64,000 bases of DNA from Ereboglobus sp. (GTDB lineage Bacteria > Verrucomicrobiota > Verrucomicrobiia > Opitutales > Opitutaceae): assembly GCA_029974595.1 (NCBI GenBank), contig JARKRC010000040.1, positions 1 through 64,000 of the forward strand, written 5' to 3'. Each line of letters opens with the position of its first letter. Positions within the stretch are counted from its first letter, which is position 1. Under the pieces are notes generated by a model. It made no database searches and had not been told where the DNA came from. It was given only the letters and a program-made list of their open reading frames with translations. This document shows positions 6,058-64,000 of this stretch, one piece after another. The translations under genes were made by a program, and so were the position numbers.

Positions 6058-6065
6058 AAACCACT

Positions 6066-7256: not shown

Positions 7257-7261
7257 ACATC

Positions 7262-37975: not shown

Positions 37976-38160
37976 GGGGGCGCTAAATCCCGGCGATCCC
38001 GCGCCGCGGAGCATGGTGGATTTTTTTCGGCAAGGTTTGCTTAACAGACCAAATGAATTGGCTGCACAAGTTAGCGCGCAGGCCAATTATGGGTTGATCG
38101 TTTCTTTTTCGTCCTCCCAAAAAGCCCATTATTAACCAACCCATGCAGATGAATAATGTC

Positions 38161-39342
38161 ATGAAACCAATATATGCCCTGCTATCAGTTATCGCCTTGG
38201 TGATGGCCGCCGGGGATTTGCCGGCCAATACGAACTCGGATGCGGATATCGCCGTGTTTGAGCGACAGATACTTTTTGAGGCCGGCGCGGATCGTGAATA
38301 CAGATCAATCCGCATCCCCTGCCTTCTTGCGTTGCCTGACAACACCGTGCTCGCTGTTGCCGCCGGGCGCAGCAGGGCATCGGATTGGGCGGATATTCGC
38401 ATGATCATGCGCCGGAGCACGGATGGCGGTAAAACATGGGAGCCGTTGACCGTGCTTATCGATCGCGGGCAAAACGTGGCCGACAACCCTGTCTTGATTT
38501 GGGACGGTCCGGCAAAGACCGTGCATTTCCTCCATCAGGTGAATTACGAACGGATCTATCACATGACGAGCGCCGACAGTGGCAAGACATGGTCAAAGCC
38601 CGTCGATATCACGCCGCAACTGGCGCGTTTTCAGCAACTCTACAAATGGAACGTCATCGCACCGGGGCCGGGGCACGGCATCCAGTTGAAAAACGGACGC
38701 CTGGTTGTTCCCGTCTGGCTGGCGAATGGCGCGCCCGAGCCCTCCGGAAAAGGCATTGTGCACCGCCCCTCGGTAACGACCGCCATTTTTAGCGATGACC
38801 ACGGCAAAACCTGGCAGTGCGGAGACATCCTGCCTGACGTCCTCAAAAACATGAACGAAACCGTCGCCGTGCCGGCCGACGACGGCGGCGTGTGGTTTTA
38901 CGTGCGCAACGAGGAAATCCCCGCATTCAAAATCGGTGTCGCCTACAGCAAGGACGGCGCCACGAATTGGACCAAGGCGGAGCTGCACGACGATCTTTAT
39001 CACCCGATTTGTTTTTCGAGTGTGCTGAGACTCTCGGGCACGCCGGACAAGAGCCGCATCCTTTTCTGCAATCCCGATAGTCGCAACAACCCGAAACGCA
39101 ACAAACGCAATGACTGGCGCGCGCGCGAAAACCTCACTCTCCGGATGAGTTACGATGAGGGCAAAACATGGCCTGTCGTCCGGGTGCTGGAACCCGGAGC
39201 CAGTTCGTATTCCGACCTTACAATCCTCGCCGACGGAACGATTCTCTGCCTGTTTGAGCATCACAACAAGTATATCTCCGTCGCCCGCTTCAACCTGGAA
39301 TGGCTGACGGATCGCAAGGATGCATTGCGCCGCGACGGATAG
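38161..39342 (+). CDS. GH33 exo-alpha-sialidase (paralogue 1)
   Basis: 393 residues from the ATG that starts the signal peptide (MKPIYALLSVIALVMAAG); ATGs at 38143 and 38149 are alternatives. The sialidase marks are the RIP arginine in SIRIPCLLALPDNTVLAV and Asp-boxes STDGGKTW, SADSGKTW, SDDHGKTW and SYDEGKTW. A Glu is in NMNETVAV and the catalytic Tyr in SSYSDLT. The APGPGHGIQLKNGR segment is shared with the copies at 55370 and 56609. It releases terminal sialic acid from glycans outside the cytoplasm. It lies between two sulfatase genes. Confidence 0.87.
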   Translation: MKPIYALLSVIALVMAAGDLPANTNSDADIAVFERQILFEAGADREYRSIRIPCLLALPDNTVLAVAAGRSRASDWADIRMIMRRSTDGGKTWEPLTVLIDRGQNVADNPVLIWDGPAKTVHFLHQVNYERIYHMTSADSGKTWSKPVDITPQLARFQQLYKWNVIAPGPGHGIQLKNGRLVVPVWLANGAPEPSGKGIVHRPSVTTAIFSDDHGKTWQCGDILPDVLKNMNETVAVPADDGGVWFYVRNEEIPAFKIGVAYSKDGATNWTKAELHDDLYHPICFSSVLRLSGTPDKSRILFCNPDSRNNPKRNKRNDWRARENLTLRMSYDEGKTWPVVRVLEPGASSYSDLTILADGTILCLFEHHNKYISVARFNLEWLTDRKDALRRDG

Positions 39343-40897: not shown

Positions 40898-41240
40898 GCA
40901 ATCGCTGCTCCGGTCAATTGGCCGTGCTCGCCGCACGAAGACATTCCGCCGTCGATGGCTATTTGCACATGGATCATCTGGCGTTGGCCAGCATTAATAT
41001 TTTTATCTAGTTGAAGATCAGTAATTTTTAGAACGATTGAAGATTTTTAAAATGCAATATGGTTTTAACAAAATACCATGATCTTTCCATTGTTTAAGCC
41101 AAATGCCCCATAATCCTGTTACCTGTTACACGGCCCTAACTCTACTTCCCTGCAAATCGGATTCATTTATGCAGCACCTCAAAACCATCCTTGCGGATTC
41201 GGAATGCGTGCAAATTTGCCGCCCATTTTTATACAACATT
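40898..41240. other. AT-rich leader region before the first autotransporter
   Basis: No gene seen in 343 bases. The distal half is AT-rich (around 40995-41095) and includes a copy of the CAAAATACCATGAT motif at 41069-41082. This is the most likely promoter region for the autotransporter. I could not fix -35/-10 boxes with confidence. Confidence 0.5.
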
Positions 41241-48212: not shown

Positions 48213-48269
48213 TGGATGCGCATGGCGCAAAAGCATCGGCAATTTAATACAAATCAATTATTAATAAAT

Positions 48270-51200: not shown

Positions 51201-52169
51201 GCCGTGAATATTTTGGTGATCAAGCCGGATGTGAATCCCAGCAAAGACATTGTTGCCGCTTTTGAGAGCATGAGCGCCAGCATGTCGGCAGTGTATTCCC
51301 GGGTCAGTGAAAGCTTTCTCTCTTCCATGGAGGAGCGCCAAAAAAATGACCTGGGTCGTGATTTTTGGATAAAAGGAATGGGAACATTTGCCGAGCACAA
51401 AAAGGCCGCTGACAAAATAGGATTCAAAACTGATGCCTTGGGCATATTGATGGGATACGACCGTCCGCTGGCCAGGTGGCTGCTGGCAGGCGCCTATGCG
51501 GGTTATTCAAACACGGGCATCCGGACGAACAGTCAGTCGCACACTGATGCGGATACGTTTAACATTGGCGGGTATCTTGCAGCTGTCTTTGGCCGCTTTA
51601 ACGCCACGATCGATGCTTCGATAGGCTCGCTCGCTGCCGACACAAATCGCATGGAAGGTATTGGAACGGCCGAGGGCGCGTACCGGGCCACAGTGCTTGG
51701 GGCATCCGCAGAGCTCGGTTATGCTTTGCTTGACATGAACAACATTCGAATAAGGCCCGCGGTGAGTGTCCATTTCATGGACTATCGTTTTAGGGAACAT
51801 TCGGAAGCGGGGGCTGGAGCCATGTATTTGGACGACTTTAAAACCAGTCTATTACAAGGGATGGCCAGCATCCAGACGACATATGGATTTGTCACCGCCT
51901 GGAAGAAACCGGGCGTGCTCAGCCTTCTCATGGGGTTCCGCAGCGATGTGAACGCCAACTCGCCTTCGCTTAGCGGGGCCTTTGCGACAGACCTGACCAA
52001 CAAGTTCCATATACAACCCGATAGTTACATGGGCAAGGCCGCTGTGATCGGATTGGGGTTGAATTTTGCAATTTTGAAGAAGGGCAATCTCGGCCTGAAC
52101 TATGACTATGAGGTGTCAAAAACATACACCCGAAACACGGTAACCATCAACCTGTTTTGGTCGTGGTGA
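48270..52169 (+). CDS. Autotransporter with Pmp-like motifs
   Basis: 1299 residues from the ATG that starts the basic n-region and a long hydrophobic signal (ASVIALFAGMMMVGGIV). Residues about 105-280 contain FRNN, FDSN, FYSN and FKNN each followed by GGAI, GAM or GAL, as in chlamydial polymorphic membrane proteins. The module beginning AKGGGFYYA and running to LLLGNDEAKYGG is shared with the larger neighbour. The translocator barrel spans about 990-1299 (FWIKGMGTFAEHKK, end TINLFWSW). It starts 57 bases after the first autotransporter and was probably produced by duplication followed by loss of repeats. Confidence 0.92.
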   Translation: MKKHDILVHRGLLSALKASVIALFAGMMMVGGIVRAEVITSSTTVTVVGNTAQPVQIASGTTRYDIADEAVLTFTRTGTYVGQSGGVISIGAAATLIFAPTDSTGQVVFENSEVTVHGGAINMAGINSVLDVTNGIFRNNRNGALANSGVSGAIHNTQATTLIKLTNVVFDSNGSRGNTGAMRVTGTLLMTGGGFYSNWAMGDHTGALHMNGTPYISLTDVTFDSNRARTSAGAMTVGNGAALLNNVIFKNNWAGSVGGAIRSGHGASGTFVLTMTASGTTNDYLYSGNFASGVLDTILSSTTPNPQISENAPEFTSLAKGGGFYYASGVGVAEFNIANDVTLRIGVVSATNRNYDTIASATSNANIRKTGGGDLILNADNRYFSGTTIVQAGRLLLGNDEAKYGGRIIVSSGASFGGSGTVATLNADDTAATTNVMVGPGAILQVGTTEQASARLSIAGALTLDNATVSFVAYGGTQAAKLELLSIPTVIGTTVLNMQSFKSGTYSFGAAAADLYYVHSALLSVNGSVVAAGGRHSAQVVGTAADLQLALTVDKARAMKWTGSSGSQWNVSDDNWESVLNASIKKFAAGDSVEFDTALSGNAAITINATTPITDIAVSGPNTIIFNGDGGIRAVPYQVGDDAEASVMAGVGKLTKRGTGTIVFNNGENEFKGGIDIVDGGAIVFNRGEQLRTGGSAITFFQSATLQALGNAQMTNNIVVSASKTAELNIDFDTTTRLSGIVSGGDLSKTGAGLLILAGENTHAATNLHSGTLRLERGNALGNGPLAIVGNNTALEVAGGLTVPNAISMGANSLTLRHVGASLTTLSGNITGTGILTVGGHAPLMFSGSNNLAGFVATGSVSIIPASLGALGGAQSVVSIQAPATINLGYAQVQAKSLEVDGGTLTIDSFALGVPLLKLSDSLVLKNNALVKVGATIPSGGYVLANAASFNGVQDVDYILDVGTNTKYTYKLGFNNGAVNILVIKPDVNPSKDIVAAFESMSASMSAVYSRVSESFLSSMEERQKNDLGRDFWIKGMGTFAEHKKAADKIGFKTDALGILMGYDRPLARWLLAGAYAGYSNTGIRTNSQSHTDADTFNIGGYLAAVFGRFNATIDASIGSLAADTNRMEGIGTAEGAYRATVLGASAELGYALLDMNNIRIRPAVSVHFMDYRFREHSEAGAGAMYLDDFKTSLLQGMASIQTTYGFVTAWKKPGVLSLLMGFRSDVNANSPSLSGAFATDLTNKFHIQPDSYMGKAAVIGLGLNFAILKKGNLGLNYDYEVSKTYTRNTVTINLFWSW

Positions 52170-52222: not shown

Positions 52223-55200
52223 ATGACCAACGAAATTTCATTCAATAAGCCGAGCATGGTATTCGCGCTGGTGACCCTATTTACTTTCGCCCTCGCACCA
52301 TTGACCAAAGCGCAAACAAACGAGCCGTTGGGAACCGGTTTCATAGAAGGTCGCGTGTTTAACGCCGCCACTGGATCCGCGCTTGAATCCGCAAGGGTCA
52401 CAGTTGAAGGAAGCACCTTTTTTGCCGTAACCGATGGAATAGGTTTCTTTCGCATTGGCCCCATCCCGGCAGGCGAGAAGAAGCTGGTTGTGTCCTACAC
52501 AGGCTTCCTTGAAAGCTCCGCCACCGTGGTCGTCACAAAAGACCAGACAGTACAGAAGGAATTTGACTTGACCGTGCGGCGCGAAATGCCCCGTCCGGGG
52601 CATGATGAGGATGTTGTCATGCTGGAAAAATATTCAGTTGTCGCTGATCGCGAAATTAGCGCCCAGGCCATAGCCCTCAATGAGCGCCGTGAAGCGAGCA
52701 ATATCAAAAACGTAGTGGCCATAGACGAGTATGGTTATTTGGGGGATGAAAATGTCGGCGAGTTCATGCGTTATCTGCCCGGCGTTGCCATTGCAGAGAG
52801 CGGGGACACTCCGGATGGTGTCATGCTGCGCGGGCTTCCTTCTGCCAGTACAAATATTCAATTGGACGGATTTGACATCGCTTCGGCAAATGGCAGCCGC
52901 TCGCAATCGCTGTTGAGCATCCCGATGGGTAATGTCAGTCGCATAGAAGTGACCAAGGTGCCGACTCCGGATATGCCGGCAAGTGGTCTCGGCGGATCTG
53001 TTAATCTGATTTCTTCAAGCGGATTCATAAGGAGAACCCCGAAATTTGACTACAGTGTGTACATTACCATGCTCAGCAGCAACATAGGCATCGAAGGCGG
53101 AAATGAAGGACCTGTTCCAAGCTTGAGCCCCAAATTCCAGCAACCGTCGGTTTCATTGTCTTACATTTTGCCAATCAGCAGGAAATTCGCGCTCACGGCA
53201 AGTGTTACGCGCACATGGAGAAACCAACCCATGGACGAAGCGCGAATCGATACGCAGGCCGACTGGAATTTTGTGACGAATTTTCAAAGGCAGAGCAAAT
53301 GGATGGCGCTTGCCCACCTGTATGAGACATGGACTGCGCAGATAGGCGCTACATGGCGTGTATCGCGCAGCGGGATGCTGACTGCCAATATTCAACGGCG
53401 CCACTACGAACACGAATTGCTGCGTTTGGATATCAGCCTGGGATATGGCTCAGGGGCCACAGGCGATGCTCATTATTCTTTGGGCTCCACGTCAGCCAAT
53501 GGAACGATCCTCCAGAGCGGCGGCCCCAACAGAAAAGGTGAAAATAACACCACGCACTCAACGCTCAAGTATACGCACTCATGGACGAGATGGAAAATGG
53601 ATATAGCGGGTTCATGGTCGTATAACGACAGTTCCAACACGGACATTAGCAACGGCTATTTTTCGACAGCCCCAACGCGCATCCAAAATGTTCAAATACG
53701 GGGGGACGGAATAGGGGAAAACAAAGGCAGTCTCATCCCGGCGCGTTATAGCGCAAAAAAAGGCGGGGTTCCAATCGATATATATAGCGGTGAGAATTAT
53801 GTCATTGGCCAGCCAACCTCGGATGAGAGCAAGGGGACGAATAACAAATACGTGGCTCGTTTCGATCTTTCCAGGGATCTGGCATGGGATAATGCGAGCG
53901 GAGCGATAAAAATCGGCGCACTTTATGACTTTCAAGATTATGAAACTGATCCGGCATCCAATGTCTGGACATTCACCCCCATAGGAGTCGCCAATATAGC
54001 TTCGAATTTTGATGTGTTTAATCAAAGTTTTAACATGAGCGCGCCACGTTTTGGTGAAAAACAGATGGATTGGATAAATGTCAGGAAATTGTATCAACTT
54101 TATCTGCAAAAACCCGAGTGGTTTGTTTTGGATGAGGCAAAAACACATCAAAATAATGCCGGTTTCAGCAAAAAGTTTCAGGAGGGAATCATGGCGGGGT
54201 ACATACGAGCGGACCTGCGCCTGCTCTCCAACAAACTCTGGATTGTCACCGGCGCCCGCTATGAGCGCACCGAGGACAAGACGGAAGGCATGCTTTATAA
54301 TCCCAACGCTCCCTACGTCAGAAATCCCGATGGCACGCCCGTAAGAAACCCCGATGGCTCCAGAATTTTTCTTCCCGAAGCCAATACGGCGCTGGCGCGT
54401 ACAAAAATGATATATGGAATTCGCGGCGCGCATGTCGAAAGATCCTATGAAGGATTTTATCCAAGTATCAACATATCCTATACCCTGACGCCAAATATAA
54501 TTGTTCGCACGGCTTATGCCCGGACCATTGGACGCCCTGACCTGAAGCATATTGTCCCGGGCACAACAACCAGCACAGTCGCCGATACGGAATCGATATT
54601 GGTCCTTAACAATCCAAATCTCAGGCCATGGACCGGAAATGGATATGACTTGACCGTGGAATTTTACGGCGTCAAGGACGGTCATGGCTCAATTGGCATA
54701 TTTCAAAAGAACCTGAGCAACTTTTTCGAAGTATTCGACGAACCTTATACGCTGGAGATAGCAGAAAAATATGGAATTCCTTATAATTCGGAATACGAAG
54801 AGCAGAATTGGAGTGTGCGAAGCAGGCGCAATGGCACAAATGCCAAAATTTTGGGTTATGAATTTAGCTGGACGCAAAAGTTGACCTTTCTTCCCTATTG
54901 GGCGAGGGGCATAAGGGTGTTTTTTAACGCGACAAAACTGGACCTTAACGGTTCTGCGACTGCGGATTTTGCCGGTTATGCGCCTGAGAATTTTTCTGCC
55001 GGCATAGACCTGGTTCGTTCCCGTTATTCCGTGAAAGTGGGCGTCACATACCAGGCGGAGACGCGGGGGTCCCAATTGGCCGAAAGCGCGGCGAATGGAG
55101 TGCCCAAGGATGTCACATACAATTATAGGGGCGAAGCGTTGAAAATCCGTTTGAACGCGGAGTATAGCATATCAAAGCGCCTCGCATTCTACCTGTCCAT

Positions 55201-55333
55201 TGCGGATCTCCAACCGGACGGCAATATTGCGTTGAGCCGGCGCTATACCCCGGATTCGCCGGAATATGTCAAGGACTACCGGCGACAGGACCTTGGCAGG
55301 TCAATCACAATCGGCGTCCGGGGATCATTTTAA
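52223..55333 (+). CDS. TonB-dependent receptor with N-terminal regulatory-like domain
   Basis: 1036 residues. The signal peptide is followed by a carboxypeptidase-regulatory-like domain (about 38-115: GRVFNAATGSALESARVTVEG). Next comes the plug (about 145-270, with GVMLRGLPSASTNIQLDGF and VPTPDMPASGLGGSVNLI) and a 22-strand type barrel ending TIGVRGSF. This layout is common for verrucomicrobial receptors and differs from SusC in lacking a paired SusD. It imports oligosaccharides or similar molecules across the outer membrane using TonB. It lies 53 bases after the second autotransporter and 36 before the sialidase cluster, so sialylated or desialylated glycans are the likely cargo. Confidence 0.92.
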   Translation: MTNEISFNKPSMVFALVTLFTFALAPLTKAQTNEPLGTGFIEGRVFNAATGSALESARVTVEGSTFFAVTDGIGFFRIGPIPAGEKKLVVSYTGFLESSATVVVTKDQTVQKEFDLTVRREMPRPGHDEDVVMLEKYSVVADREISAQAIALNERREASNIKNVVAIDEYGYLGDENVGEFMRYLPGVAIAESGDTPDGVMLRGLPSASTNIQLDGFDIASANGSRSQSLLSIPMGNVSRIEVTKVPTPDMPASGLGGSVNLISSSGFIRRTPKFDYSVYITMLSSNIGIEGGNEGPVPSLSPKFQQPSVSLSYILPISRKFALTASVTRTWRNQPMDEARIDTQADWNFVTNFQRQSKWMALAHLYETWTAQIGATWRVSRSGMLTANIQRRHYEHELLRLDISLGYGSGATGDAHYSLGSTSANGTILQSGGPNRKGENNTTHSTLKYTHSWTRWKMDIAGSWSYNDSSNTDISNGYFSTAPTRIQNVQIRGDGIGENKGSLIPARYSAKKGGVPIDIYSGENYVIGQPTSDESKGTNNKYVARFDLSRDLAWDNASGAIKIGALYDFQDYETDPASNVWTFTPIGVANIASNFDVFNQSFNMSAPRFGEKQMDWINVRKLYQLYLQKPEWFVLDEAKTHQNNAGFSKKFQEGIMAGYIRADLRLLSNKLWIVTGARYERTEDKTEGMLYNPNAPYVRNPDGTPVRNPDGSRIFLPEANTALARTKMIYGIRGAHVERSYEGFYPSINISYTLTPNIIVRTAYARTIGRPDLKHIVPGTTTSTVADTESILVLNNPNLRPWTGNGYDLTVEFYGVKDGHGSIGIFQKNLSNFFEVFDEPYTLEIAEKYGIPYNSEYEEQNWSVRSRRNGTNAKILGYEFSWTQKLTFLPYWARGIRVFFNATKLDLNGSATADFAGYAPENFSAGIDLVRSRYSVKVGVTYQAETRGSQLAESAANGVPKDVTYNYRGEALKIRLNAEYSISKRLAFYLSIADLQPDGNIALSRRYTPDSPEYVKDYRRQDLGRSITIGVRGSF

Positions 55334-55369: not shown

Positions 55370-56554
55370 ATGAAATTCCATAAGGTTGCGTTATTGTTTA
55401 TATTTTCCGCCATAAATATTATCGGTGTTTTGTCATCGGCGCCCGATCCGAATGATGCATTTTTCGAAAAAGAAAACCTCTTTGAGGTGAACGATGCCTA
55501 CAAATCGATACGAATTCCTTGCATACTGGCGCTGCCGGATGATACGGTTCTGGCCATCACGTCAGCGCGCAGTGTCCCTTCGGACTGGGCTGTCATACGG
55601 TTGCTGATGCGTCGCAGTCCGGATGGCGGGAAAACATGGGAGCCGCCTGTGGTGCTCGCCGAGGATGGCAAAAATGTGGTCGATAATCCTGTGGCGATTT
55701 GGGATGCGCAAAAGAAAGTTGTCCATTTTTTGTATCAGACCAATTACGAACGTGTATGGCACATGCAAAGTTCGGACGGGGGAAAGACCTTTGGCAGGCC
55801 GGTGGAGATCACCCGCCAGCTAACTGGATTCCATAAATATTATAAGTGGAATGTGATCGCCCCGGGGCCGGGGCATGGCATCCAGATGAAAAACGGCCGG
55901 ATTGTGGTACCGGTATGGTTGTGCATCGGCACGCTGAACAAATCGGGGCATGGCCGTTCTCACCGCCCTTCTGTGACCTCTGTCATTTACAGCGACGACA
56001 ATGGAAAAACGTGGCAATGTGGCGATATCGTGCCCGACACGCTCAAAAACATGAATGAGACCGTTGCCGTTGAAGCCGATGACGGCGGTGTCTGGCTGTA
56101 TATACGCAACGAGGATCCCGCCTACAGAAAGGCCATTGCATACAGCAAGGACGGCGCGACAAACTGGACGAAGGCCGAACTGAACGATGCACTTTATACG
56201 CCGATCTGTTTTGCAAGCGTGCTTCGCGTATCGGGAGCGCCGGACAGAAGCCGCATCCTGTTTTGCAACCCCAACAGTCCCACCAAAACGAAGCAGCGCG
56301 TCAAATGGGGCGGCCGTACCCGTGAAAACCTGACTGTGAGATTGACTTACGATGAGGGCAAGACATGGCCTGTGTCAAAAGTGATAGAACCGGGGCGGAG
56401 CGCGTATTCTGACATGACCGTGCTTTCAGATGGCACGATCCTGTGCATGTATGAGCATGGCTACAATCCGGATAACGTTTATAATACGCGATACATGACC
56501 GTCGCCCGCTTCAATTTGGAGTGGCTGACGGATGCCAAGGATTCACTAAAATGA
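55370..56554 (+). CDS. GH33 exo-alpha-sialidase (paralogue 2)
   Basis: 394 residues with a signal peptide (LLFIFSAINIIGVLSSA). Arg48 sits in the RIP motif (SIRIPCILALPDDTVLAI). Asp-boxes are SPDGGKTW, SSDGGKTF, SDDNGKTW and TYDEGKTW; the Glu is in NMNETVAVE and the Tyr in SAYSDMT. It is close to the copies at 38161 and 56609 (shared APGPGHGIQ and NPVAIWD/NPVLIWD) and more distant from the one at 59020. It hydrolyses terminal sialic acids; the split among four paralogues suggests different linkages or sialic-acid types. It starts 36 bases after the receptor gene. Confidence 0.88.
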   Translation: MKFHKVALLFIFSAINIIGVLSSAPDPNDAFFEKENLFEVNDAYKSIRIPCILALPDDTVLAITSARSVPSDWAVIRLLMRRSPDGGKTWEPPVVLAEDGKNVVDNPVAIWDAQKKVVHFLYQTNYERVWHMQSSDGGKTFGRPVEITRQLTGFHKYYKWNVIAPGPGHGIQMKNGRIVVPVWLCIGTLNKSGHGRSHRPSVTSVIYSDDNGKTWQCGDIVPDTLKNMNETVAVEADDGGVWLYIRNEDPAYRKAIAYSKDGATNWTKAELNDALYTPICFASVLRVSGAPDRSRILFCNPNSPTKTKQRVKWGGRTRENLTVRLTYDEGKTWPVSKVIEPGRSAYSDMTVLSDGTILCMYEHGYNPDNVYNTRYMTVARFNLEWLTDAKDSLK

Positions 56555-56608
56555 AAAATGGGCCCTGCCCTTTGGGGATGGGCGCAAGCAGATAGTCTAT
56601 TTTATAAA

Positions 56609-57781
56609 ATGAAACATATAATTAAAATCATAATTGCCCTGTGCGTTTCGACCTCGTTTTTGAACGCTTCGGAGCCCGGCTGGTCGTTCATGGAGAAGAT
56701 TCCGCTGTTTGAGGCGGTCAAGGGAGGCAAATACCAGTCGATCCGCATCCCGTGCATCCTTGCATTGCCCGATAACACGGTGCTCGCGGTCGTTGCGGGG
56801 CGCAGCCGGGTGTCGGATTGGGCGGATATCGACATGATCATGCGGCGGAGCACGGACGGCGGAAAAACATGGGAGCCGACGAAGGTGCTTGTCGATGCGG
56901 GAACCGATGTTGCCGACAATCCCGTCCTGATATGGGATCGCGATGCGAAAGTGGTGCACTTCCTTCATCAGGTGGATTATGCGCGCATTTATCATATGCA
57001 GAGCACCGATGGCGGGAAGACGTTCAGCAAGGGTGTCGATATTACGCCGCAGCTGGGCGCGTTCATGGAAAAATTCAAATGGGGCGTGATTGCTCCCGGA
57101 CCGGGGCATGGCATTCAATTAAAAAATGGACGCTTGATCGTGCCTGTGTGGCTTGCCGGAGGAAAGCCGATCACGACGGGCCGCGAAGCCGGGCGCGCAA
57201 GGTCGCACGGACCATCCGTGGCGACGGTCATCTACAGCGACGACCACGGCAAAACATGGCACTGCGGGGACATATTGCCCAAAACATTGCAAAACATGAA
57301 TGAGACCGTGGCCGTTGAGGCGGACGACGGGGGCGTGATGTTCATAATACGCAATGGCGAGCCCGGAGCCTACGCCAAGGCGATCGCGCGCAGCCCGAAT
57401 GGCGCGACGGACTGGACGAAGGCTGAATTGAACAAGGATCTTTATTCGCCGATCTGTTTCGGCAGCGCATTGCGCATTTCGGGCGCGCCGGGGAAGAGCC
57501 GCATTCTGTTTTGCAATCCCGACAGCCGCCTGAATCCGAAGCCGAACAGGGCGGGGCAGGGTCGCGCCCGCGAAAACCTGAGCGTCAGGCTCAGCTATGA
57601 CGATGGGCGCACGTGGCCTGTTTCGAGGGTGATTGAGCCCGGATACAGCTCCTATTCCGATCTGGCCATGCTGCCTGATGGCACGATTTTATGCCTCTAT
57701 GAGCATGGCAACAAATACGTTTCCGTCGCCCGTTTCAATTTGGAGTGGGTCAGCTCCCGGCAGGACACCTTGTCCAGATAA
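56609..57781 (+). CDS. GH33 exo-alpha-sialidase (paralogue 3)
   Basis: 390 residues from the ATG at the signal peptide (MKHIIKIIIALCVSTSFLNAS); a longer frame from 56558 was rejected. RIP arginine in SIRIPCILALPDNTVLAV, Asp-boxes STDGGKTW (twice as STDGGKT), SDDHGKTW and SYDDGRTW, Glu in NMNETVAVE and Tyr in SSYSDLA. It differs from paralogue 2 by an insert after PVWLAGGKP. It follows paralogue 2 by 54 bases and probably arose by tandem duplication. A 123-base gap with T-runs near 57886-57899 separates it from the next gene. Confidence 0.88.
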   Translation: MKHIIKIIIALCVSTSFLNASEPGWSFMEKIPLFEAVKGGKYQSIRIPCILALPDNTVLAVVAGRSRVSDWADIDMIMRRSTDGGKTWEPTKVLVDAGTDVADNPVLIWDRDAKVVHFLHQVDYARIYHMQSTDGGKTFSKGVDITPQLGAFMEKFKWGVIAPGPGHGIQLKNGRLIVPVWLAGGKPITTGREAGRARSHGPSVATVIYSDDHGKTWHCGDILPKTLQNMNETVAVEADDGGVMFIIRNGEPGAYAKAIARSPNGATDWTKAELNKDLYSPICFGSALRISGAPGKSRILFCNPDSRLNPKPNRAGQGRARENLSVRLSYDDGRTWPVSRVIEPGYSSYSDLAMLPDGTILCLYEHGNKYVSVARFNLEWVSSRQDTLSR

Positions 57782-57904: not shown

Positions 57905-59011
57905 ATGACATCCCCTGATATTTTGATCTTCACCGCTTGCGGTCTTCTGTGCGCGGTTGTGGTGGGCGGCTCTTCCTGGGCGGCCTCGGCTTCCGAGCGC
58001 GAAGACCCGGTTTTGAGTTGGACGCAGATCTCGTCGATTCCCGACAAGGAGGGATTCGCGGGCAGCTATGGCGGCGTTGCCGGCGGCGCGCTGGTTGTTG
58101 CCGGCGGGGCAAATTTTCCGGATGCCCGTCCGTGGGAAGGAGGCACGAAGACGTGGTATGACAAGGTGTTCGTGCTTGAGCCCGGCGCGAAGCAATGGCG
58201 GCAGGAGGGGCGTTTGCCGAAGGCGTCGGGCTACGGCCTGTCGCTGCCGTGGAAGGATGGTTTTCTCATCATCGGCGGCGGCGATGCCAGGGAAAATTTC
58301 AAGGCCGTTTGGCATGTGACGCGGGCGGGCGGAACAGGCGTCAGGTTTTCCGCGCTTCCGGATTTGCCGCGTCCGCTGGCGATGCAGGCGGGCGCTGTCG
58401 TGAAGCATTACGTGTATGTGGCGGGCGGACTGGAAACGCCGGCGAGCAACGAGGCGGCGAATGTCCTGTATCGGCTTAACTTGGAAAACATGGCGTCAGG
58501 ATGGGAAACGCTGGAGCCGTGTCCGGGCGGCGGGCGTTTTCTTGCGACTGCGGGAGCTGTCGGCGATACGCTTTATATATTTGGCGGGGCGCGTCCCGAT
58601 GGTTCTCAGGCGAAGCGCGTGTGGCTGACGGATGCGTGGTCGTATCATCCCGGGTCTGGCTGGAAACAACTCGCCTCGCTGCCGCATCCCGTCGTGGCTC
58701 CGCCTTCGCCGGCGATGCCGGCGGGGCAGGCGCATTTGCTCCTCGTGGGCGGCGACGATGGCGCGCAGGTCGGGCTTTCCGATCCGACGAAGCACAAGGG
58801 TTTCCCGCGCGGTGTGCTCGCTTATCACGCCACGAAAAACACATGGTCAAACGCGGGCGAGGCGCCGTTTTCGCTTGTGACGACGACGCTGGTTCCGTGG
58901 GACGGCGGTTTTGTCGTGACAGGCGGCGAACGTATGCCGGGTGTGCGCTCCACGGAGGTGTGGAAGGCGTCCTGTTCCGTGCGTTGCAAAAAGAGCAATT
59001 CCAAAGATTAA
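57905..59011 (+). CDS. nanM: Kelch-type N-acetylneuraminate epimerase / mutarotase-like protein
   Basis: 368 residues with an N-terminal signal-like segment (LIFTACGLLCAVVVGGSSWA). The motif VVAGGANFPDARPWEGGTKTWYDKVFVL is characteristic (residues about 60-90) of NanM-type and cyclically permuted mutarotases, and further kelch blades follow (FLIIGGGDA, VYVAGGLE, LYIFGGARP, LLVGGDDG, FVVTGGERM). NanM converts alpha- to beta-Neu5Ac in the periplasm, giving the form the uptake system prefers. Its place among three sialidases and upstream of nanA supports that role. It ends 8 bases before the next sialidase. Confidence 0.85.
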   Translation: MTSPDILIFTACGLLCAVVVGGSSWAASASEREDPVLSWTQISSIPDKEGFAGSYGGVAGGALVVAGGANFPDARPWEGGTKTWYDKVFVLEPGAKQWRQEGRLPKASGYGLSLPWKDGFLIIGGGDARENFKAVWHVTRAGGTGVRFSALPDLPRPLAMQAGAVVKHYVYVAGGLETPASNEAANVLYRLNLENMASGWETLEPCPGGGRFLATAGAVGDTLYIFGGARPDGSQAKRVWLTDAWSYHPGSGWKQLASLPHPVVAPPSPAMPAGQAHLLLVGGDDGAQVGLSDPTKHKGFPRGVLAYHATKNTWSNAGEAPFSLVTTTLVPWDGGFVVTGGERMPGVRSTEVWKASCSVRCKKSNSKD

Positions 59012-59019
59012 ACAATATC

Positions 59020-60168
59020 ATGAGAATTTTCTTCGCGGCATTGTTCACCTTTGCATTCGGCTTCGTGCAAACCGACGCGTTTGCGCTGAAAACAAACGTT
59101 TTTGTGAGCGGCAGGGACGGCTATGCCTACTACCGAATACCCGCCATAATAAAATCCGCGGATGGCACCTTGCTCGCTTTTTGCGAAGGGCGGAAAAACA
59201 GCAGGTCTGATCGCGGGGACATTGATTTGCTCGTAAAGCGTTCCAGTGATGGCGGCAAAACGTGGGGCAAATCAATCGTGGTCTGGGACGACCGTGACAA
59301 CACCTGCGGGAACCCCTGTCCGGTGCTCGATGAAACCACGGGAATCGTCTGGTTGTTGGCTTCGCATAATATCGGGACCGACACGCAGCAGGCCATATCG
59401 GAAGGGCGGGGGATTGGCACGCGCACAGTGTGGGCGACTTTTTCGAGAGACAACGGGGCCACGTGGGCGCCCATGCGGCAGATTACCGCGAGCGTGAAGA
59501 AGCCCGAATGGCGCTGGTATGCGACCGGCCCCGGCATTGCCATCCAGATCAAGCACGGCCCTCATGCGGGCCGGCTGGCGGTGCCGATCTGCCACGGCAA
59601 CCCGCGCGCGGCGGGCATCTTTTATTCCGACGATCACGGGCGCACATGGGCGGCGGGGGAGGATTTGCGCGGGTTGGTCGGCGAGGCCCAGGTTGTGGAA
59701 GGCTTCGGCGCGCCCGGCGAATTGATATTAAACATGCGCAGCGCCTATAAACATGGCTGCCGGACGCAGGCGCGCAGCCGCGATGGCGGAATATCATGGA
59801 GCAAGCCGCCCCGGCAGGCGACGGAGCAAACCGATCCCCCGTGCCAGGGGAGCATATTGCGCTGGGAGGATGCCTCGATGCCCGGCGGCGGGCTTCTGCT
59901 CTTTTCGAACCCGGCTGGCGAAAAAAAGCGCGTCAAAATGACCGTTCGCGCAAGCGCAGACAACGGCGAGACATGGCCGCATGCGCTCGTGCTCCATGAA
60001 AATGCCTCCGCTTATTCCTGCCTTGTGCGCGTGGATGCAAACACGGCGGCATGCCTCTATGAAAACGGTCCCAAGGGCGAGCCGTATGCGCGAATCTCAT
60101 TCGAGACTTTTTCGCCCGGCGATTTCTTGAAAAACAATAAAAAACCAGCCGGGCAGCCGGCTCCTTGA
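59020..60168 (+). CDS. GH33 exo-alpha-sialidase, canonical type (paralogue 4)
   Basis: 382 residues from the ATG at the signal peptide (MRIFFAALFTFAFGFVQTDA); the longer upstream frame overlaps nanM and was rejected. This copy has the textbook pattern: YYRIPAIIKSADGTLLAFCEGR with Arg39, then Asp-boxes SSDGGKTW, SRDNGATW, SDDHGRTW, SRDGGISW and SADNGETW. GEAQVVEGFG holds the catalytic Glu region and SAYSCLV the Tyr. It is closer to well-known bacterial and mammalian sialidases than the other three. The leader AAACAATATC matches that of the MFS gene. The next gene starts 5 bases after its stop. Confidence 0.93.
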   Translation: MRIFFAALFTFAFGFVQTDAFALKTNVFVSGRDGYAYYRIPAIIKSADGTLLAFCEGRKNSRSDRGDIDLLVKRSSDGGKTWGKSIVVWDDRDNTCGNPCPVLDETTGIVWLLASHNIGTDTQQAISEGRGIGTRTVWATFSRDNGATWAPMRQITASVKKPEWRWYATGPGIAIQIKHGPHAGRLAVPICHGNPRAAGIFYSDDHGRTWAAGEDLRGLVGEAQVVEGFGAPGELILNMRSAYKHGCRTQARSRDGGISWSKPPRQATEQTDPPCQGSILRWEDASMPGGGLLLFSNPAGEKKRVKMTVRASADNGETWPHALVLHENASAYSCLVRVDANTAACLYENGPKGEPYARISFETFSPGDFLKNNKKPAGQPAP

Positions 60169-60173
60169 ATATT

Positions 60174-61364
60174 ATGAAAATCACCGCAGTAAAATGCCTG
60201 CTTCTCTCGGCCCCGTACGCGGCGCCGGGCGACCTCGAGCGCGAATTTTGCTTTGCCGACGGATACCGCACGATTTCCGTAATAAAAATCGAAACGGACG
60301 AAGGGATCCACGGCCTGGGCGAAACGTATATTGGCGTTTTTGCGCCCGAGGCCACGCAGGCCCTCGTCCGGCAGCTTGAGGCCGATCTGCTCGGGCGCGA
60401 CCCGATGGATACGGCTGGCATCGCGAATATATTAAAACTGGCGATTTATTATTGGGGGCGCTTCGGCATGTCGGCCAGCATTGCAGGCGGCATCGAAATG
60501 GCCCTGTGGGACATCAAGGGGAAGGCGCTCGGCGTTCCAGTATACCAATTGCTCGGCGGCAAGGCGCGCGACCACATCCCCGCCTATGCGAGCGGCGGCA
60601 ACAACAAGCCGTTCCCGGAGTTGAAAGCCGAGATGCAGGAATATCAACGGCTCGGTTTCGGAGCGGTGAAGATTCGCATCAATTATCTGGAGCCGCACGA
60701 GATCGTCGAGAAAGTCGCATTCTGCCGCGACGTGCTCGGCCGCGAAACCGGCCTTGGCGTCGATGCCTGTCAGGGCGTGAATCCACGCGCGTGGAATCAC
60801 AAGGAGGCCGTCCGCATCGTTCGCTCGCTCGAACCGTATGATCTTCTTTTCGTCGAGGAGCCGTGCGAGGTGACCGACTACAAGGGCTTCGCAAAAATCC
60901 GCGCCGAGACCGGCTGCGTGATCGCGGGAGGCGAAACGGTTTCGAGTCTGGTCGAGGCGGAGAATTATCTCGAAGCCGGCGCGCTCGATCTGTTCCAGCC
61001 GGATGCGGCGCTGATTGGCGGCATAGGCGCCTTCCGCCGCGTCGCTCAAATGTGCGAGCGCAAGTTTGTCAAAATCGCCGTGCACACGTGGGCGGGCGGC
61101 GTCGGGATCATGGGCAATTATCATGCGGCCTTTGCCTCGCCCAACTGCACGATTCTCGAACTGCCCAACAATCCGTATCCGCTTCGCGAGGAGTTTCTCG
61201 TCAAACCGCTCAGGCTCGTCAACGGCGGCATCGACGCGCCCACGGAACCGGGCCTCGGCGTGAAATTGCCGGAGGATGTCGAGAAGCGCTATCCCTACCG
61301 TCCGGGATCATTCTACAGCACGGTCGGTTATCCAAAGAAAAATCTTGCGTCGTTGAAAAAATAA
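60174..61364 (+). CDS. Enolase-superfamily sugar-acid dehydratase
   Basis: 396 residues from the ATG at 60174. MR/MLE fold with a capping domain and a barrel: Lys166 in VKIRIN, metal ligands Asp197 (GVDACQG), Glu228 (FVEEP) and Glu254 (GGET), then His304 in VHTWAGG. The third ligand is Glu, so it belongs to a mandelate-racemase-like or galactonate-dehydratase-like branch rather than the Asn-type seen at 6066. It would dehydrate an aldonate-type acid in the cytoplasm. Its presence 5 bases after a sialidase and before nanA is unusual, since the standard sialic acid path has no dehydratase. Confidence 0.85.
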   Translation: MKITAVKCLLLSAPYAAPGDLEREFCFADGYRTISVIKIETDEGIHGLGETYIGVFAPEATQALVRQLEADLLGRDPMDTAGIANILKLAIYYWGRFGMSASIAGGIEMALWDIKGKALGVPVYQLLGGKARDHIPAYASGGNNKPFPELKAEMQEYQRLGFGAVKIRINYLEPHEIVEKVAFCRDVLGRETGLGVDACQGVNPRAWNHKEAVRIVRSLEPYDLLFVEEPCEVTDYKGFAKIRAETGCVIAGGETVSSLVEAENYLEAGALDLFQPDAALIGGIGAFRRVAQMCERKFVKIAVHTWAGGVGIMGNYHAAFASPNCTILELPNNPYPLREEFLVKPLRLVNGGIDAPTEPGLGVKLPEDVEKRYPYRPGSFYSTVGYPKKNLASLKK

Positions 61365-61365
61365 C

Positions 61366-62331
61366 ATGTCCGCAAAACTCACATTTTATTGCAGCCACGA
61401 TGCTTTTTTTGACGATGCCGTTCCGCGCGCCCGTTTTGAGAAGGCCTGCGCCGGCCTTGATGTCGATTTGAGGTGGCTTCCGCAAAACACGCCGGAGCCC
61501 GAGGCGCGCGCCGCTCTCAACCGGAGCGATATCGCCCTTGGCTGGCCGGAGCCAAAGTGGGTGCTGGAAAGCAACCTCGCTTATTTTCAATGCGGCAGCA
61601 CCGGCTATGAGAAATACGCGGGCAAGGGGCTCGAAACCAAGCCGCGTTTCGTGATGTGCAATGCCGCCGGCACGATGTCGATTCCCGTCGCCGAGCACGG
61701 CATCGCCATGATGCTCGCCGGCACACGCAACCTGCACCTGCACGCCGTCGATGCCGCCGGCAGACGTTTCGTGCGTCGGCCGCCTTATCGCGAAGTGTTT
61801 GGCGCGACGGCGTGTGTTTGCGGCCTCGGGCACATCGGCACCGAAATTGCGCGCATGTGCAAGGGCCTCGGCATGGAAGTCATCGGTGTCGCGAGATCGA
61901 AGACGCATACAATCGCCAGCGAGGTTTATCCGCTGGATCGGATCAGGGAGGCCGTCACCAGGGCCGATCACGTTTTTATAGTGCTACCGCTTAACGCGCA
62001 AACGGCCGGGATCTTTGATAAAACACTGTTCGACGCCATGCGTCCCGGAACCTGCCTTTACGCGCTTGCGAGGGGCGCGCATTATGTGGCCGGTGATCTT
62101 GTCGACGCACTCAAAAACGGGCGGCTCGGCTTTGCCGGGATCGACGTTTTCACCGAGGAGCCGCTCAATCCCGGCAGTCCGCTCTGGACGGCGCCGAATT
62201 GCCTCATCACGCCGCATTGCAGCGGACGCTCGGTGCGCGAACACGAACGCCTTGCAGACCTCGTCATTGAAAATATAAAACGCTTCAAGGCCGGCGAACC
62301 GCTCCTCAACACAGTGATGAAAACCGACTGA
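61366..62331 (+). CDS. D-isomer-specific 2-hydroxyacid dehydrogenase
   Basis: 321 residues, starting one base after the previous stop codon. NAD-binding GLGHIGTEIARMCKGLG is in the middle, preceded by AEHGIAMMLA. The catalytic triad is complete: Arg in YALARGAHYV, Glu in DVFTEEPLNPGSP and His in CLITPHCSG. It interconverts 2-keto and D-2-hydroxy acids. Acting with the dehydratase upstream and the lyase downstream, it could reduce or oxidise a keto-deoxy intermediate. Substrate unknown. Confidence 0.88.
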   Translation: MSAKLTFYCSHDAFFDDAVPRARFEKACAGLDVDLRWLPQNTPEPEARAALNRSDIALGWPEPKWVLESNLAYFQCGSTGYEKYAGKGLETKPRFVMCNAAGTMSIPVAEHGIAMMLAGTRNLHLHAVDAAGRRFVRRPPYREVFGATACVCGLGHIGTEIARMCKGLGMEVIGVARSKTHTIASEVYPLDRIREAVTRADHVFIVLPLNAQTAGIFDKTLFDAMRPGTCLYALARGAHYVAGDLVDALKNGRLGFAGIDVFTEEPLNPGSPLWTAPNCLITPHCSGRSVREHERLADLVIENIKRFKAGEPLLNTVMKTD

Positions 62332-62344
62332 AAACCATACTACG

Positions 62345-63277
62345 ATGAAACCGCTTTCTCCACAGGAAATCCGGGGCAACTGGGCGACGCTGCTGCTCCC
62401 GATTCTGCCCGATGACTCGATTGATTACAATCTGCTCGGCGCGGAGCTCGACCATTTTATAAAAGTCCGCGTCAACGGCGTGTATTCCAACGGCAGCGCG
62501 GGCGAATTTTATACGCAAACCGAGGCTGAATTCGACCGCATCAACACCCTGCTTGCCGAAAAATGCAACGCAGCCGGAATGCCGTTCCAGATAGGGGCTT
62601 CGCATCCGTGCGCGCAAATTGCGCGGGAACGAATCCGCCGCGCAAAGGCGCTCGCGCCCTCCGCTTTTCAGGTGACGCTTCCGGACTGGTTTCCGCCGGC
62701 GCTTCCCGAGATTATCGACTTCCTGCAAGTCATCTCGGCGGAGGCCGCGCCGATTCCGCTGATTGTATATAATCCGCCGCACGCGAAGCGCAAACTCACG
62801 CCGGTGGAGTGGGCCGTCATCGCGGAGCGAGTTCCCGGGGTCGCCGGGATGAAAGTGCCCGGCGGCGATGATGCCTGGTATGAGGCGATGCGCCCGCTCA
62901 TGAAACGCTTTTCCATATTCATTCCGGGGCATCATTTGCACAAGGGGCTCGCGCGCGGGGCGCATGGCGCCTACTCGAATGTCGCCTGCCTCAGCCCGCG
63001 ATTTGCGCAAAATTGGTATGAGCTGTGCTTTCGCGATCCCGCCGCGGGCGGCGCGATCGGCGAACGCGTGATCGCGTTTTGGGAAAGCAACATCGCGCCC
63101 GTCATCACGAAGCACGGGCACAGCAACATGGCAGCGGACAAGACGGCTGCGGTTGCCGGCAACTGGCTCCCTGCGATGACCACCCGTTTGCGCTGGCCTT
63201 ATGCGAGCGTATCCAATGCAACGGCCAGGCAGATCGGCGAGGCAGCCCGCGCCGCCCTCCCCGAGGCTTTCGCGTAA
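62345..63277 (+). CDS. DHDPS/NanA-superfamily aldolase or lyase (not NanA)
   Basis: 310 residues of the class I aldolase fold. Schiff-base Lys170 lies in AGMKVPGGD and Tyr142 in IVYNPP, as in dihydrodipicolinate synthase relatives. The usual GTTGE substrate loop is replaced by GSAGEF, so the carboxylate site is altered and neither DapA nor NanA specificity is expected. Family members cleave or make 2-keto-3-deoxy acids or dehydrate them. It is 13 bases after the dehydrogenase and 44 before nanA. A role in the dehydratase-dehydrogenase branch is inferred. Confidence 0.82.
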   Translation: MKPLSPQEIRGNWATLLLPILPDDSIDYNLLGAELDHFIKVRVNGVYSNGSAGEFYTQTEAEFDRINTLLAEKCNAAGMPFQIGASHPCAQIARERIRRAKALAPSAFQVTLPDWFPPALPEIIDFLQVISAEAAPIPLIVYNPPHAKRKLTPVEWAVIAERVPGVAGMKVPGGDDAWYEAMRPLMKRFSIFIPGHHLHKGLARGAHGAYSNVACLSPRFAQNWYELCFRDPAAGGAIGERVIAFWESNIAPVITKHGHSNMAADKTAAVAGNWLPAMTTRLRWPYASVSNATARQIGEAARAALPEAFA

Positions 63278-63321: not shown

Positions 63322-64000
63322 ATGAGTAATAATAATCCATCGTTTCATTTAACAGGCCTGATCGCCGCGCCCTTCACGCCTTTCGACGCCAAGGGGAGGC
63401 TCAAGCTCGGCGTGATTCCGAAAATCGTCAAATACTACAAGGCGACCGGCGTGAGCGGCGCGTTCATTTGCGGCACGACAGGCGAAGGCGCGTCCATGAG
63501 CAACGAGGAGCGCTGCATCGTTGCCGAGGCGTGGGCATCCGCGCTCAAGGGCACGGGCGTGAAGCTGATCGTGCATGTCGGGCACAACAGCCAGGCCGAC
63601 GCCTGCTCGCTCGCCGCGCATGCCGAGAAAATCGGAGCCGACGCCATCGCCGCGATTGCGCCGTCGTTTTTCAAGCCGGAAGGCGTTGAGGGCATTGTGA
63701 CGTGGTGCGTGCCGGTTGCCGCCGCCGCGCCGAAAACGCCTTTCTACTATTACCACATGCCGGCCATGACTGGCGTGAACGTGCCCATGGCCGACTTTCT
63801 GCCTGCCGCCGCGAAACGTATTCCCAGCTTTGGCGGCATCAAGTTCACCCACGAAAACATCATGGACTACGCGCTCGCGCTCAAGGCGGCGGGCGACAAA
63901 TACGACGTGCTGTTCGGCCGCGACGAGATTCTCCTTTCCGCCCTGGCGCTCGGCGCGAAAGGCGCCGTGGGCAGCACTTACAACTACGCTTCGGCGCTCT
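63322..64000 (+). CDS. nanA: N-acetylneuraminate lyase (partial, runs off the window)
   Basis: The first 226 codons are present and open to the window edge. LIAAPFTPFDAKGRLKL opens the protein. The substrate loop is CGTTGEG (residues 50-56), catalytic Tyr144 is in YYYHMPAMTG and Schiff-base Lys174 in FGGIKFTHEN. The HMPAMTG and KFTHEN contexts are those of sialate lyases, which split Neu5Ac into ManNAc and pyruvate. This anchors the upstream genes as a sialic acid locus. Kinase (nanK) and epimerase (nanE) genes may follow outside the window. Confidence 0.9.
   Translation, partial: MSNNNPSFHLTGLIAAPFTPFDAKGRLKLGVIPKIVKYYKATGVSGAFICGTTGEGASMSNEERCIVAEAWASALKGTGVKLIVHVGHNSQADACSLAAHAEKIGADAIAAIAPSFFKPEGVEGIVTWCVPVAAAAPKTPFYYYHMPAMTGVNVPMADFLPAAAKRIPSFGGIKFTHENIMDYALALKAAGDKYDVLFGRDEILLSALALGAKGAVGSTYNYASAL

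Follow-up and report, generated by a model that had tools for sequence, protein, structure and literature searches.

In the 64,000-nucleotide stretch of an Ereboglobus sp. contig analysed here (the window), three genes in head-to-tail order, for an enolase-superfamily protein (MLE), a 2-hydroxyacid dehydrogenase (HADH) and a protein of the DHDPS family (DHDPSL), are flanked by a GH33 gene and nanA (Table 1). Their coordinates confirm the placement between sialidase and nanA given in an earlier note made from the sequence alone, as well as its intergenic gaps of 5 bases (counted from the end of the sialidase gene at 60168), 1 base and 13 bases, from which we infer a single transcript. Promoter and terminator scans returned sites no more numerous than in shuffled sequence. 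MLE starts at an ATG, with an in-frame TTG also at 60165 that overlaps the sialidase stop. NanA, whose nearest relatives are Vibrio-group and animal N-acetylneuraminate lyases, starts 44 bases past DHDPSL, and its gene ends just outside the window. As that note had counted, four GH33 genes fall within the window; a fifth lies just past it. The NanM-type mutarotase stands here without the fused SSF transporter (NanM:SSF) carried by genomes G002, G051 and G080 of the genus, and a gene 68% identical to the TonB-dependent receptor lies upstream of GH33 genes in G080. The aroB-, rplY-, GH36-, GH106-, HpaI-, RraA-, YjhG- and YhcH-like genes of the loci compared were named by eye.

Table 1. Genes of the sialic acid locus, with positions in the window
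Feature	Position	Strand	Basis or remark
Further GH33 homologue	38143..39342	+	62-65% identity to sialidases a and b
TonB-dependent receptor	52223..55333	+	
GH33 sialidase a	55370..56554	+	
GH33 sialidase b	56558..57781	+	
NanM-type sialate mutarotase (kelch)	57905..59011	+	
GH33 sialidase c	59020..60168	+	Of a, b and c, closest to the solved sialidases compared
MLE, enolase-superfamily (mandelate racemase type) acid-sugar dehydratase	60174..61364	+	Motifs, Pfam
HADH, D-2-hydroxyacid dehydrogenase	61366..62331	+	GLGHIG nucleotide motif, Pfam
DHDPSL, DHDPS-family class I aldolase/dehydratase	62345..63277	+	Tyr142 and Lys170 kept
NanA	63322..64000 (gene end at contig position 64251)	+	Sequence comparison

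The Asp/Glu/Glu dehydratase ligands that the earlier note had read in MLE are present as VDACQG, VEEP and AGGET and, with an Asp-His dyad, place it in the enolase superfamily, mandelate-racemase type; Pfam MR_MLE_C and MR_MLE_N both scored above cut-off. MLE fell under every NCBIfam cut-off listed, those of the named dehydratases included, its best match being galactonate dehydratase (194.2 bits against a cut-off of 311). Galactonate dehydratase entries are among its PDB matches; 4ggb, which ranks first, is titled 'uncharacterised' and is presumably a galactarolactone cycloisomerase. The second-strand motif reads K-I-R, where generic paralogues in the family show K-x-G, K-x-S or, in one case, K-x-A. 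Another MLE lineage, also K-I-R, follows NanA and its own HADH at two loci (L060 and L068), both of which hold DHDPSL. The MLE tree sets 26 other paralogues apart (98/96) and leaves the trio MLE and the NanA-adjacent MLE at an open fork, with a long-branch warning from the tool. HADH matched Pfam 2-Hacid_dh_C above cut-off and carries a GxGxxG motif and, by eye, the catalytic Arg/Glu/His of D-2-hydroxyacid dehydrogenases, to which it is assigned; GLGHIG followed by VARS suggests NADP as cofactor.

DHDPSL belongs to the DHDPS superfamily by its Pfam DHDPS score (36.3 bits against a gathering score of 22.1) and by the DHDPS fold of its predicted structure (pLDDT 92.5). As in N-acetylneuraminate lyases, a Schiff-base Lys170 and catalytic Tyr142 were present in all 20 rows counted (2 of 22 were left out for length). 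The sugar positions of sialate lyases read Gly195/His196/Asn212 in the same 20 rows and Asp/Glu/Ser in 31 of 31 NanA rows (10 of 41 left out for length), and the Lys, Tyr and Gly/His/Asn of DHDPSL were also invariant across a separate set of 30 rows. None of the 20 rows holds Asp191/Glu192/Ser208, the E. coli NAL residues named for Neu5Ac recognition in PMC5380162. These columns were taken from hhalign; in the phmmer alignment of DHDPSL with 1hl2 the first two are shifted by one (His196 and the variable residue 197) and still hold neither Asp nor Glu. Against NCBIfam nanA (TIGR00683), DHDPSL scored 38.2 bits for a cut-off of 382. Because Lys and Tyr are kept and the Asp/Glu/Ser of sialate lyases are not, DHDPSL is, judged on its residues, probably not a standard Neu5Ac lyase. 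The GSAGEF loop singled out in the earlier note is present, but we reject it as a special sign: across 30 rows the loop reads GSAGE or GTAGE, with GSAAE in two actinobacterial rows, and a GxxGE motif variable at two places says little by itself. DHDPSL has signatures of its own in GH.L, YSN.ACL, PDW and RWPY. Foldseek placed the Corynebacterium glutamicum sialate lyase (5c54/5c55) in rows 1-6 and YagE in row 7, ahead of E. coli-type lyases. In a second structure comparison (VIA-align 2) YagE and many DHDPS lay within 1 Z unit, among the families listed, so this second ranking selects no function for DHDPSL.

Across 150 genomes of the family, close orthologues form nested sets, with DHDPSL in 16, MLE in 10 and HADH in 7. 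NanA occurs in 15 of the 16 DHDPSL genomes vs 20 of the 134 others (one-sided Fisher p = 2.8e-10, kinship ignored). Within the fetched stretch, 14 of 20 DHDPSL loci hold NanA or GH33, or 16 when NanM of at least 60% identity is counted; this set omits L040, L041, L043 and L046 as copies of L056, L057, L061 and L067, and L047-L052 and L069-L072 for identity below 60%. Distant MLE paralogues occupy 26 places, of which 25 served as controls and the last (G138:C43), beside NanA in DHDPSL locus L060, was counted separately; NanA or GH33 was found at 0 of 25 control loci (p 2.3e-7), or 1 of 26 with the L060 paralogue (p 2.0e-6), absences being weak at those control and test loci that are short contigs. 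The co-occurrence that the earlier note had proposed to look for is found, with nanA across genomes and with NanA or GH33 in gene neighbourhoods. MLE of at least 68% identity is present in 10 genomes, all with DHDPSL; all 10 loci hold NanA, GH33 or NanM (at least 60% identity), and in 9 MLE adjoins DHDPSL, directly or with HADH between, the tenth (G080) being split by contig ends. Within the genus, G002 (100% complete) lacks the trio: its NanM:SSF is followed by NanA, alongside an aroB-like gene, whereas in G051 MLE-HADH-DHDPSL stands between NanM:SSF and NanA, with the same aroB-like gene beyond; GH33 matches number 12, 6 and 5 in the trio genomes vs 2. Co-occurrence, linkage and a trio-less nan locus in the same genus make the link of the orthologous trio to sialoglycan use well supported. 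The sialic reading rests on the GH33 genes being sialidases, and against this stands PMC4930215, where a figure legend counts the putative sialidases from Opitutaceae TAV1 and TAV5 with the models that miss some of nine sialyl-contacting residues of the Trypanosoma cruzi enzyme.

The association is looser for the parts. MLE-HADH pairs occur without NanA or GH33 at 19 of 25 paralogue loci and are generic as a class, so the earlier note's concern that the trio might be equally common near unrelated sugar-acid genes holds for that class, but not for this lineage. MLE and DHDPSL occur without HADH in L061, L062 and L067, and HADH-DHDPSL without a trio-type MLE in L055, making any order of steps a guess. 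Six of the 20 DHDPSL loci lack NanA and GH33 in the fetched stretch, and four of these (L042, L044, L055 and L066) also lack NanM of at least 60% identity. Among ten homologues of DHDPSL at 48-54% identity, GH33 is adjacent in L047-L050 and not in L051, L052 or L069-L072. In the Bacteroidota loci L047-L049, DHDPSL sits in nan operons with GH33, NanA and NanM:SSF, neither MLE nor HADH is close by, and the MLE homologues in their genomes at E <= 1e-20 reach 33% identity at most; the three enzymes therefore need not be one fixed pathway. A search of 387 genomes of the phylum gave at least two DHDPSL at E <= 1e-70, both in Opitutaceae (up to five candidates scored in each genome).

NanE was absent from G000 (96% complete) and present in 2 of 36 genomes searched. 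An AGE-family epimerase was found in 12 of 16 DHDPSL genomes (two of the 12 matches being weak, G100 at 31.6 bits and G105 at 57 bits) vs 8 of 20 other NanA genomes; because AGE is, if anything, commoner alongside DHDPSL, we do not favour a ManNAc bypass in which the trio replaces the epimerase. Neither epimerase was found in the 8-Mb genome G046, where NanA has four matches and DHDPSL three (one of them at 49%).

We tentatively favour, at just short of an even chance, an accessory sugar-acid cassette within a sialoglycan-use operon, forming a non-phosphorylative branch. MLE would dehydrate an aldonic acid (C2-H, C3-OH), yielding a 2-oxo-3-deoxy acid; DHDPSL would form a Schiff base with such a 2-oxo acid and either cleave it to pyruvate and an aldehyde or dehydrate it; and HADH may interconvert 2-oxo and 2-hydroxy acids, either ahead of MLE or with the products as substrates. 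With ordinary Neu5Ac meanwhile handled by NanA, the cassette would add a second acid to what is used of sialylated, sulfated glycans; that acid may come from the sialic acid itself (tail-modified, or made from the sugar that remains once it is cleaved) or from an adjacent sugar. It is possible, at somewhat less than an even chance, that the three enzymes make up an undescribed second catabolic branch in which DHDPSL represents a new DHDPS subfamily cleaving a 2-oxo acid that NanA refuses, whether a nonulosonate (tail-modified or bacterial) or a 2-oxo-3-deoxy acid that the K-I-R dehydratase forms from the sugar which sialate cleavage leaves behind. The earlier note's branch for another sugar acid, with KDN or a ManNAc-derived or other aldonate as candidate substrates, is partly supported: it gains from the tie to sialic genes and from a DHDPSL without the Neu5Ac residues, and loses from the generic MLE-HADH class and the variable make-up of the trio. 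Our literature search, from which subscription journals were mostly absent, found no description of such a trio at a sialic-acid locus.

Three other explanations bear on the same evidence. It is rather unlikely that DHDPSL is a second nonulosonate lyase with its own recognition residues, its substrate being KDN, a modified sialic acid or a bacterial di-amino nonulosonate, and that MLE and HADH act on its products or in a separate side branch. Its place beside GH33, NanA and NanM:SSF in three Bacteroidota loci without MLE or HADH would suit such an enzyme; however, Gly/His/Asn offers no known-type contact to the glycerol tail, a feature common to KDN and Neu5Gc, the nanA score is a tenth of its cut-off, and the pairing with MLE is left unaccounted for. 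The six leading Foldseek rows also point to a sialate lyase, and that C. glutamicum enzyme, according to PMC5380162, cleaves Neu5Ac though it is without Asp191/Glu192/Ser208, but VIA-align 2 ties YagE and many DHDPS.

The best NCBIfam match and PDB matches of MLE, the sulfatase, GH2, GH36-like and GH106-like genes in trio loci, and the generic MLE-HADH pairs are consistent with a general route of the galactonate/hexonate type (De Ley-Doudoroff-like) that serves some other, non-sialic sugar in that glycan (such as galactose, fucose or a uronate) and is carried along as the sugars are eaten together. We consider this improbable, given the sialic genes at all 10 loci of close MLE orthologues and DHDPSL with NanA in three Bacteroidota loci. 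Chance clustering of unrelated catabolic genes in one lineage is very improbable: trio-type HADH is found in just 7 of 150 genomes and the p values are inflated by kinship, but the set turns up in several genera, variously arranged, and the linkage counts, with controls at 0 of 25 or 1 of 26, weaken it. Were the accessory cassette correct, some Opitutaceae, and perhaps some Bacteroidota, would get more out of a sialylated glycan than textbook catabolism permits, and a testable function would fall to a DHDPS subfamily whose active-site residues are fixed but unfamiliar; since one genus includes members with and without the trio, growth comparison can address the question directly.

The locus departs from known systems in several respects. 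Of the canonical nan pathway (NanM, NanA, NanE/NanK or AGE, NagA, NagB), it holds GH33, NanM and NanA, with AGE-family and NagB-family genes (by family membership only) elsewhere in the genome and no NanE match, but three extra enzymes stand between GH33/NanM and NanA. The non-phosphorylative Entner-Doudoroff, Weimberg, Dahms and De Ley-Doudoroff routes join a dehydratase to a DHDPS-family aldolase or dehydratase, and the same pairing appears here, although nan-embedded and with HADH as an extra; the operon genes include no recognisable sugar dehydrogenase or lactonase. MLE shares its ligands and dyad with the enolase-superfamily acid-sugar dehydratases (galactonate, talarate/galactarate, ManD), and differs in scoring below the NCBIfam cut-offs listed and in its second-strand K-I-R. 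DHDPSL likewise shares fold, Schiff-base Lys, Tyr and a GxxGE-type loop with E. coli NAL, C. glutamicum NAL and YagE of the N-acetylneuraminate lyase/DHDPS superfamily, but is set apart by Gly195/His196/Asn212 in place of Asp/Glu/Ser, by 16-24% identity in the rows listed and by its own signatures.

Comparison of genomes and loci supports a link between sialoglycan use and the three genes that lie between the sialidases (GH33) and the lyase gene NanA in the window, and the trio most probably adds a non-phosphorylative branch, whose substrate and step order we infer. Pfam bore out the classes read from the sequence in the earlier note, namely an enolase-superfamily dehydratase (MLE), a D-2-hydroxyacid dehydrogenase (HADH) and a DHDPS-family protein (DHDPSL); none of the three reached NCBIfam cut-offs. 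Judged by family membership, they would dehydrate an aldonate, cleave a 2-oxo-3-deoxy acid by way of a Schiff base and carry out a redox step between 2-oxo and 2-hydroxy acid. MLE has metal ligands and dyad in place, as befits the Asp/Glu/Glu type proposed for it, and VARS after GLGHIG in HADH suggests NADP as cofactor.

Genes of the sialic acid locus in source genome G000 (4.07 Mb; window on contig C36)
Feature	Position	Strand	Remark
TonB-dependent receptor	52223-55333	+	
GH33 (a)	55370-56554	+	
GH33 (b)	56558-57781	+	
NanM	57905-59011	+	no SSF fusion
GH33 (c)	59020-60168	+	
MLE	60174-61364	+	class by Pfam
HADH	61366-62331	+	class by Pfam
DHDPSL	62345-63277	+	class by Pfam
NanA	63322 to contig position 64251	+	end beyond window
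Further GH33, then sulfatase (both on + strand)	past NanA, outside window		
GH106-like gene	beyond NanA, outside window	opposite	named by eye

By eye, GH33 a and c align with solved sialidases across the Arg, Glu and Tyr regions; a figure legend in PMC4930215 speaks against some homologues from Opitutaceae having full sialyl sites as judged by the T. cruzi pattern. NanM is fused to an SSF transporter (NanM:SSF) in three other genomes of the genus (G051, G080, G002), and this SSF has no match in the window or in locus L009. Directly upstream of the TonB receptor, 41103-52169 encodes a pair of autotransporter-like proteins of very large size (2369 and 1317 aa, by eye); in L188 of G080 a related C-terminal end likewise precedes this receptor. 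A second sugar-acid locus within the window (4792-8035; MFS and SDR named by eye and similarity) holds an MFS-like transporter, an SDR-type gene and an MLE homologue (6066-7256; 29% identity to the trio MLE, K-L-K motif).

Among 150 family genomes, DHDPSL was found in 26 at E <= 1e-20 and at >=62% identity in 16, MLE at >=68% in 10 (next match 42%), and HADH at >=75% in seven (8 copies; next 43% and lower). All ten MLE genomes have DHDPSL. The co-occurrence with nanA proposed earlier as a check was found: NanA (E <= 1e-60, 35/150 genomes) is present in 15/16 DHDPSL genomes vs 20/134 others (one-sided Fisher p 2.8e-10, shared descent ignored), the sole exception being G100, 68% complete. The closest DHDPSL among named loci (77%) are in Opitutaceae MAGs (L040, L041), which is why we treat the family as Opitutaceae.

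In fetched stretches of up to 20 kb, the full trio occurs in the window, G051 (L054), G046 (L058), G077 (L056), G100 (L057), G053 (L064) and G080. In G080, one contig (L188) reads TonB receptor-GH33-GH33-NanM:SSF-MLE-HADH and ends about 190 bases past HADH, another (L053) starts about 320 bases ahead of DHDPSL-NanA, and we infer that they adjoin. Partial sets are MLE-DHDPSL without HADH (L061, L062, L067), HADH-DHDPSL without trio-type MLE (L055), and two loci (L060, L068) in which DHDPSL is accompanied by NanA-HADH-MLE belonging to other subfamilies. NanA or GH33 accompanies DHDPSL in 14 of 20 distinct loci at >=62%; two more (L056, L057) have neither but carry a 62% NanM, and four (L042, L044, L055, L066) showed none of these in the fetched stretch, L044 having a 29% NanM-like piece. 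Ten homologues of 48-54% have GH33 in L047-L050 and not in the other six. HpaI-like aldolase genes (by eye) lie near DHDPSL or NanA in L063, L065, L067, L183 and L203, with an RraA-like gene (by eye) in L063, L067 and L203.

As controls we took 26 places of MLE paralogues (<=42% identity), 25 read in the same way; the 26th adjoins NanA in DHDPSL locus L060 and was counted apart. NanA or GH33 occurred in 0/25 (14/20 vs 0/25, p 2.3e-7; vs 1/26, p 2.0e-6; kinship ignored in both), whereas in 19/25 MLE had a homologue of HADH next to it, and NanM-like, SSF, YhcH-like or DHDPS-like genes were present in some. The MLE-HADH pair is therefore a general sugar-acid unit, and among its lineages it is that of the window that goes with sialic genes; the idea that the trio is not equally common beside unrelated sugar-acid genes stands for this lineage and fails in part for the MLE-HADH class. 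The K-I-R second-strand motif is found in 10/10 MLE orthologues and in the MLEs that adjoin NanA in L060 and L068; of the 11 other paralogues in the alignment, ten show K-x-G or K-x-S and one K-x-A. The family also has a general, uncharacterised chassis for sugar acids, in which two or three MLE-HADH pairs are arrayed together with genes of YhcH-like and/or NanM-like type (L199, L206, L218, L220; L199 also with a YjhG-like dehydratase).

Within the genus, G002 (100% complete) has NanA 19 bases after NanM:SSF, flanked by rplY- and aroB-like genes (by eye); searches of this genome with MLE, HADH and DHDPSL gave no hit within our cut-offs. In G051 the trio sits between NanM:SSF and NanA, GH33 and GH2-type genes separate NanA from the shared aroB-like gene, and the other flank is unlike that of G002. 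Whole-genome GH33 matches number 12 in G000, six in G051, five in G080 (65% complete) and two in G002. The trio is thus optional in the genus and accompanies more GH33 genes, in a comparison of one trio-less genome with three.

The ordinary Neu5Ac route probably dispenses with the trio, as first supposed. NanE had no match in G000 and was present in 2/36 genomes searched; AGE-family epimerases (20/36, G000 included) and NagB-family genes (36/36) are present, so ManNAc is probably processed through AGE. G046, with four NanA and three DHDPSL copies, has no NanE or AGE-family match. On contig C14 of G000 (L189, 8523-12406), an HpaI-like aldolase gene (by eye) adjoins an SSF-like transporter and an AGE-family epimerase (72% identity to that of G051, which adjoins a second NanA), possibly a second part of sialate metabolism.

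The chief doubt about a branch is that some nan operons contain DHDPSL but neither MLE nor HADH, as would be expected of a second lyase that takes the released acid directly. Four loci (L045, L059, L063, L065) pair DHDPSL with NanA, NanM or GH33 with no MLE/HADH nearby. In Bacteroidota, DHDPSL-GH33-NanA-NanM:SSF follows TonB receptor and SusD genes (Pfam) in Longitalea (L048) and a sulfatase in a MAG (L047), with the same order from DHDPSL onward in Niastella (L049); MLE homologues in these genomes reach only <=33% identity at E <= 1e-20. Lyase residues, placed by hhalign alignment and column counts, bear on such an activity. NanA keeps Tyr, Lys, Asp, Glu and Ser in 31/31 rows. DHDPSL shares Tyr and Lys (Tyr142, Lys170; 20/20 rows) with E. 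coli N-acetylneuraminate lyase but has Gly195, His196 and Asn212 (20/20) in place of Asp191, Glu192 and Ser208; a phmmer alignment to 1hl2 shifts the first two positions by one residue, again with no Asp/Glu there. According to passages of PMC5380162, these three residues recognise Neu5Ac in the E. coli enzyme, and a C. glutamicum enzyme cleaves Neu5Ac without their equivalents, so that their absence from DHDPSL lowers, and does not exclude, the likelihood of lyase activity. That C. glutamicum enzyme is the top Foldseek match of DHDPSL, at 22% identity.
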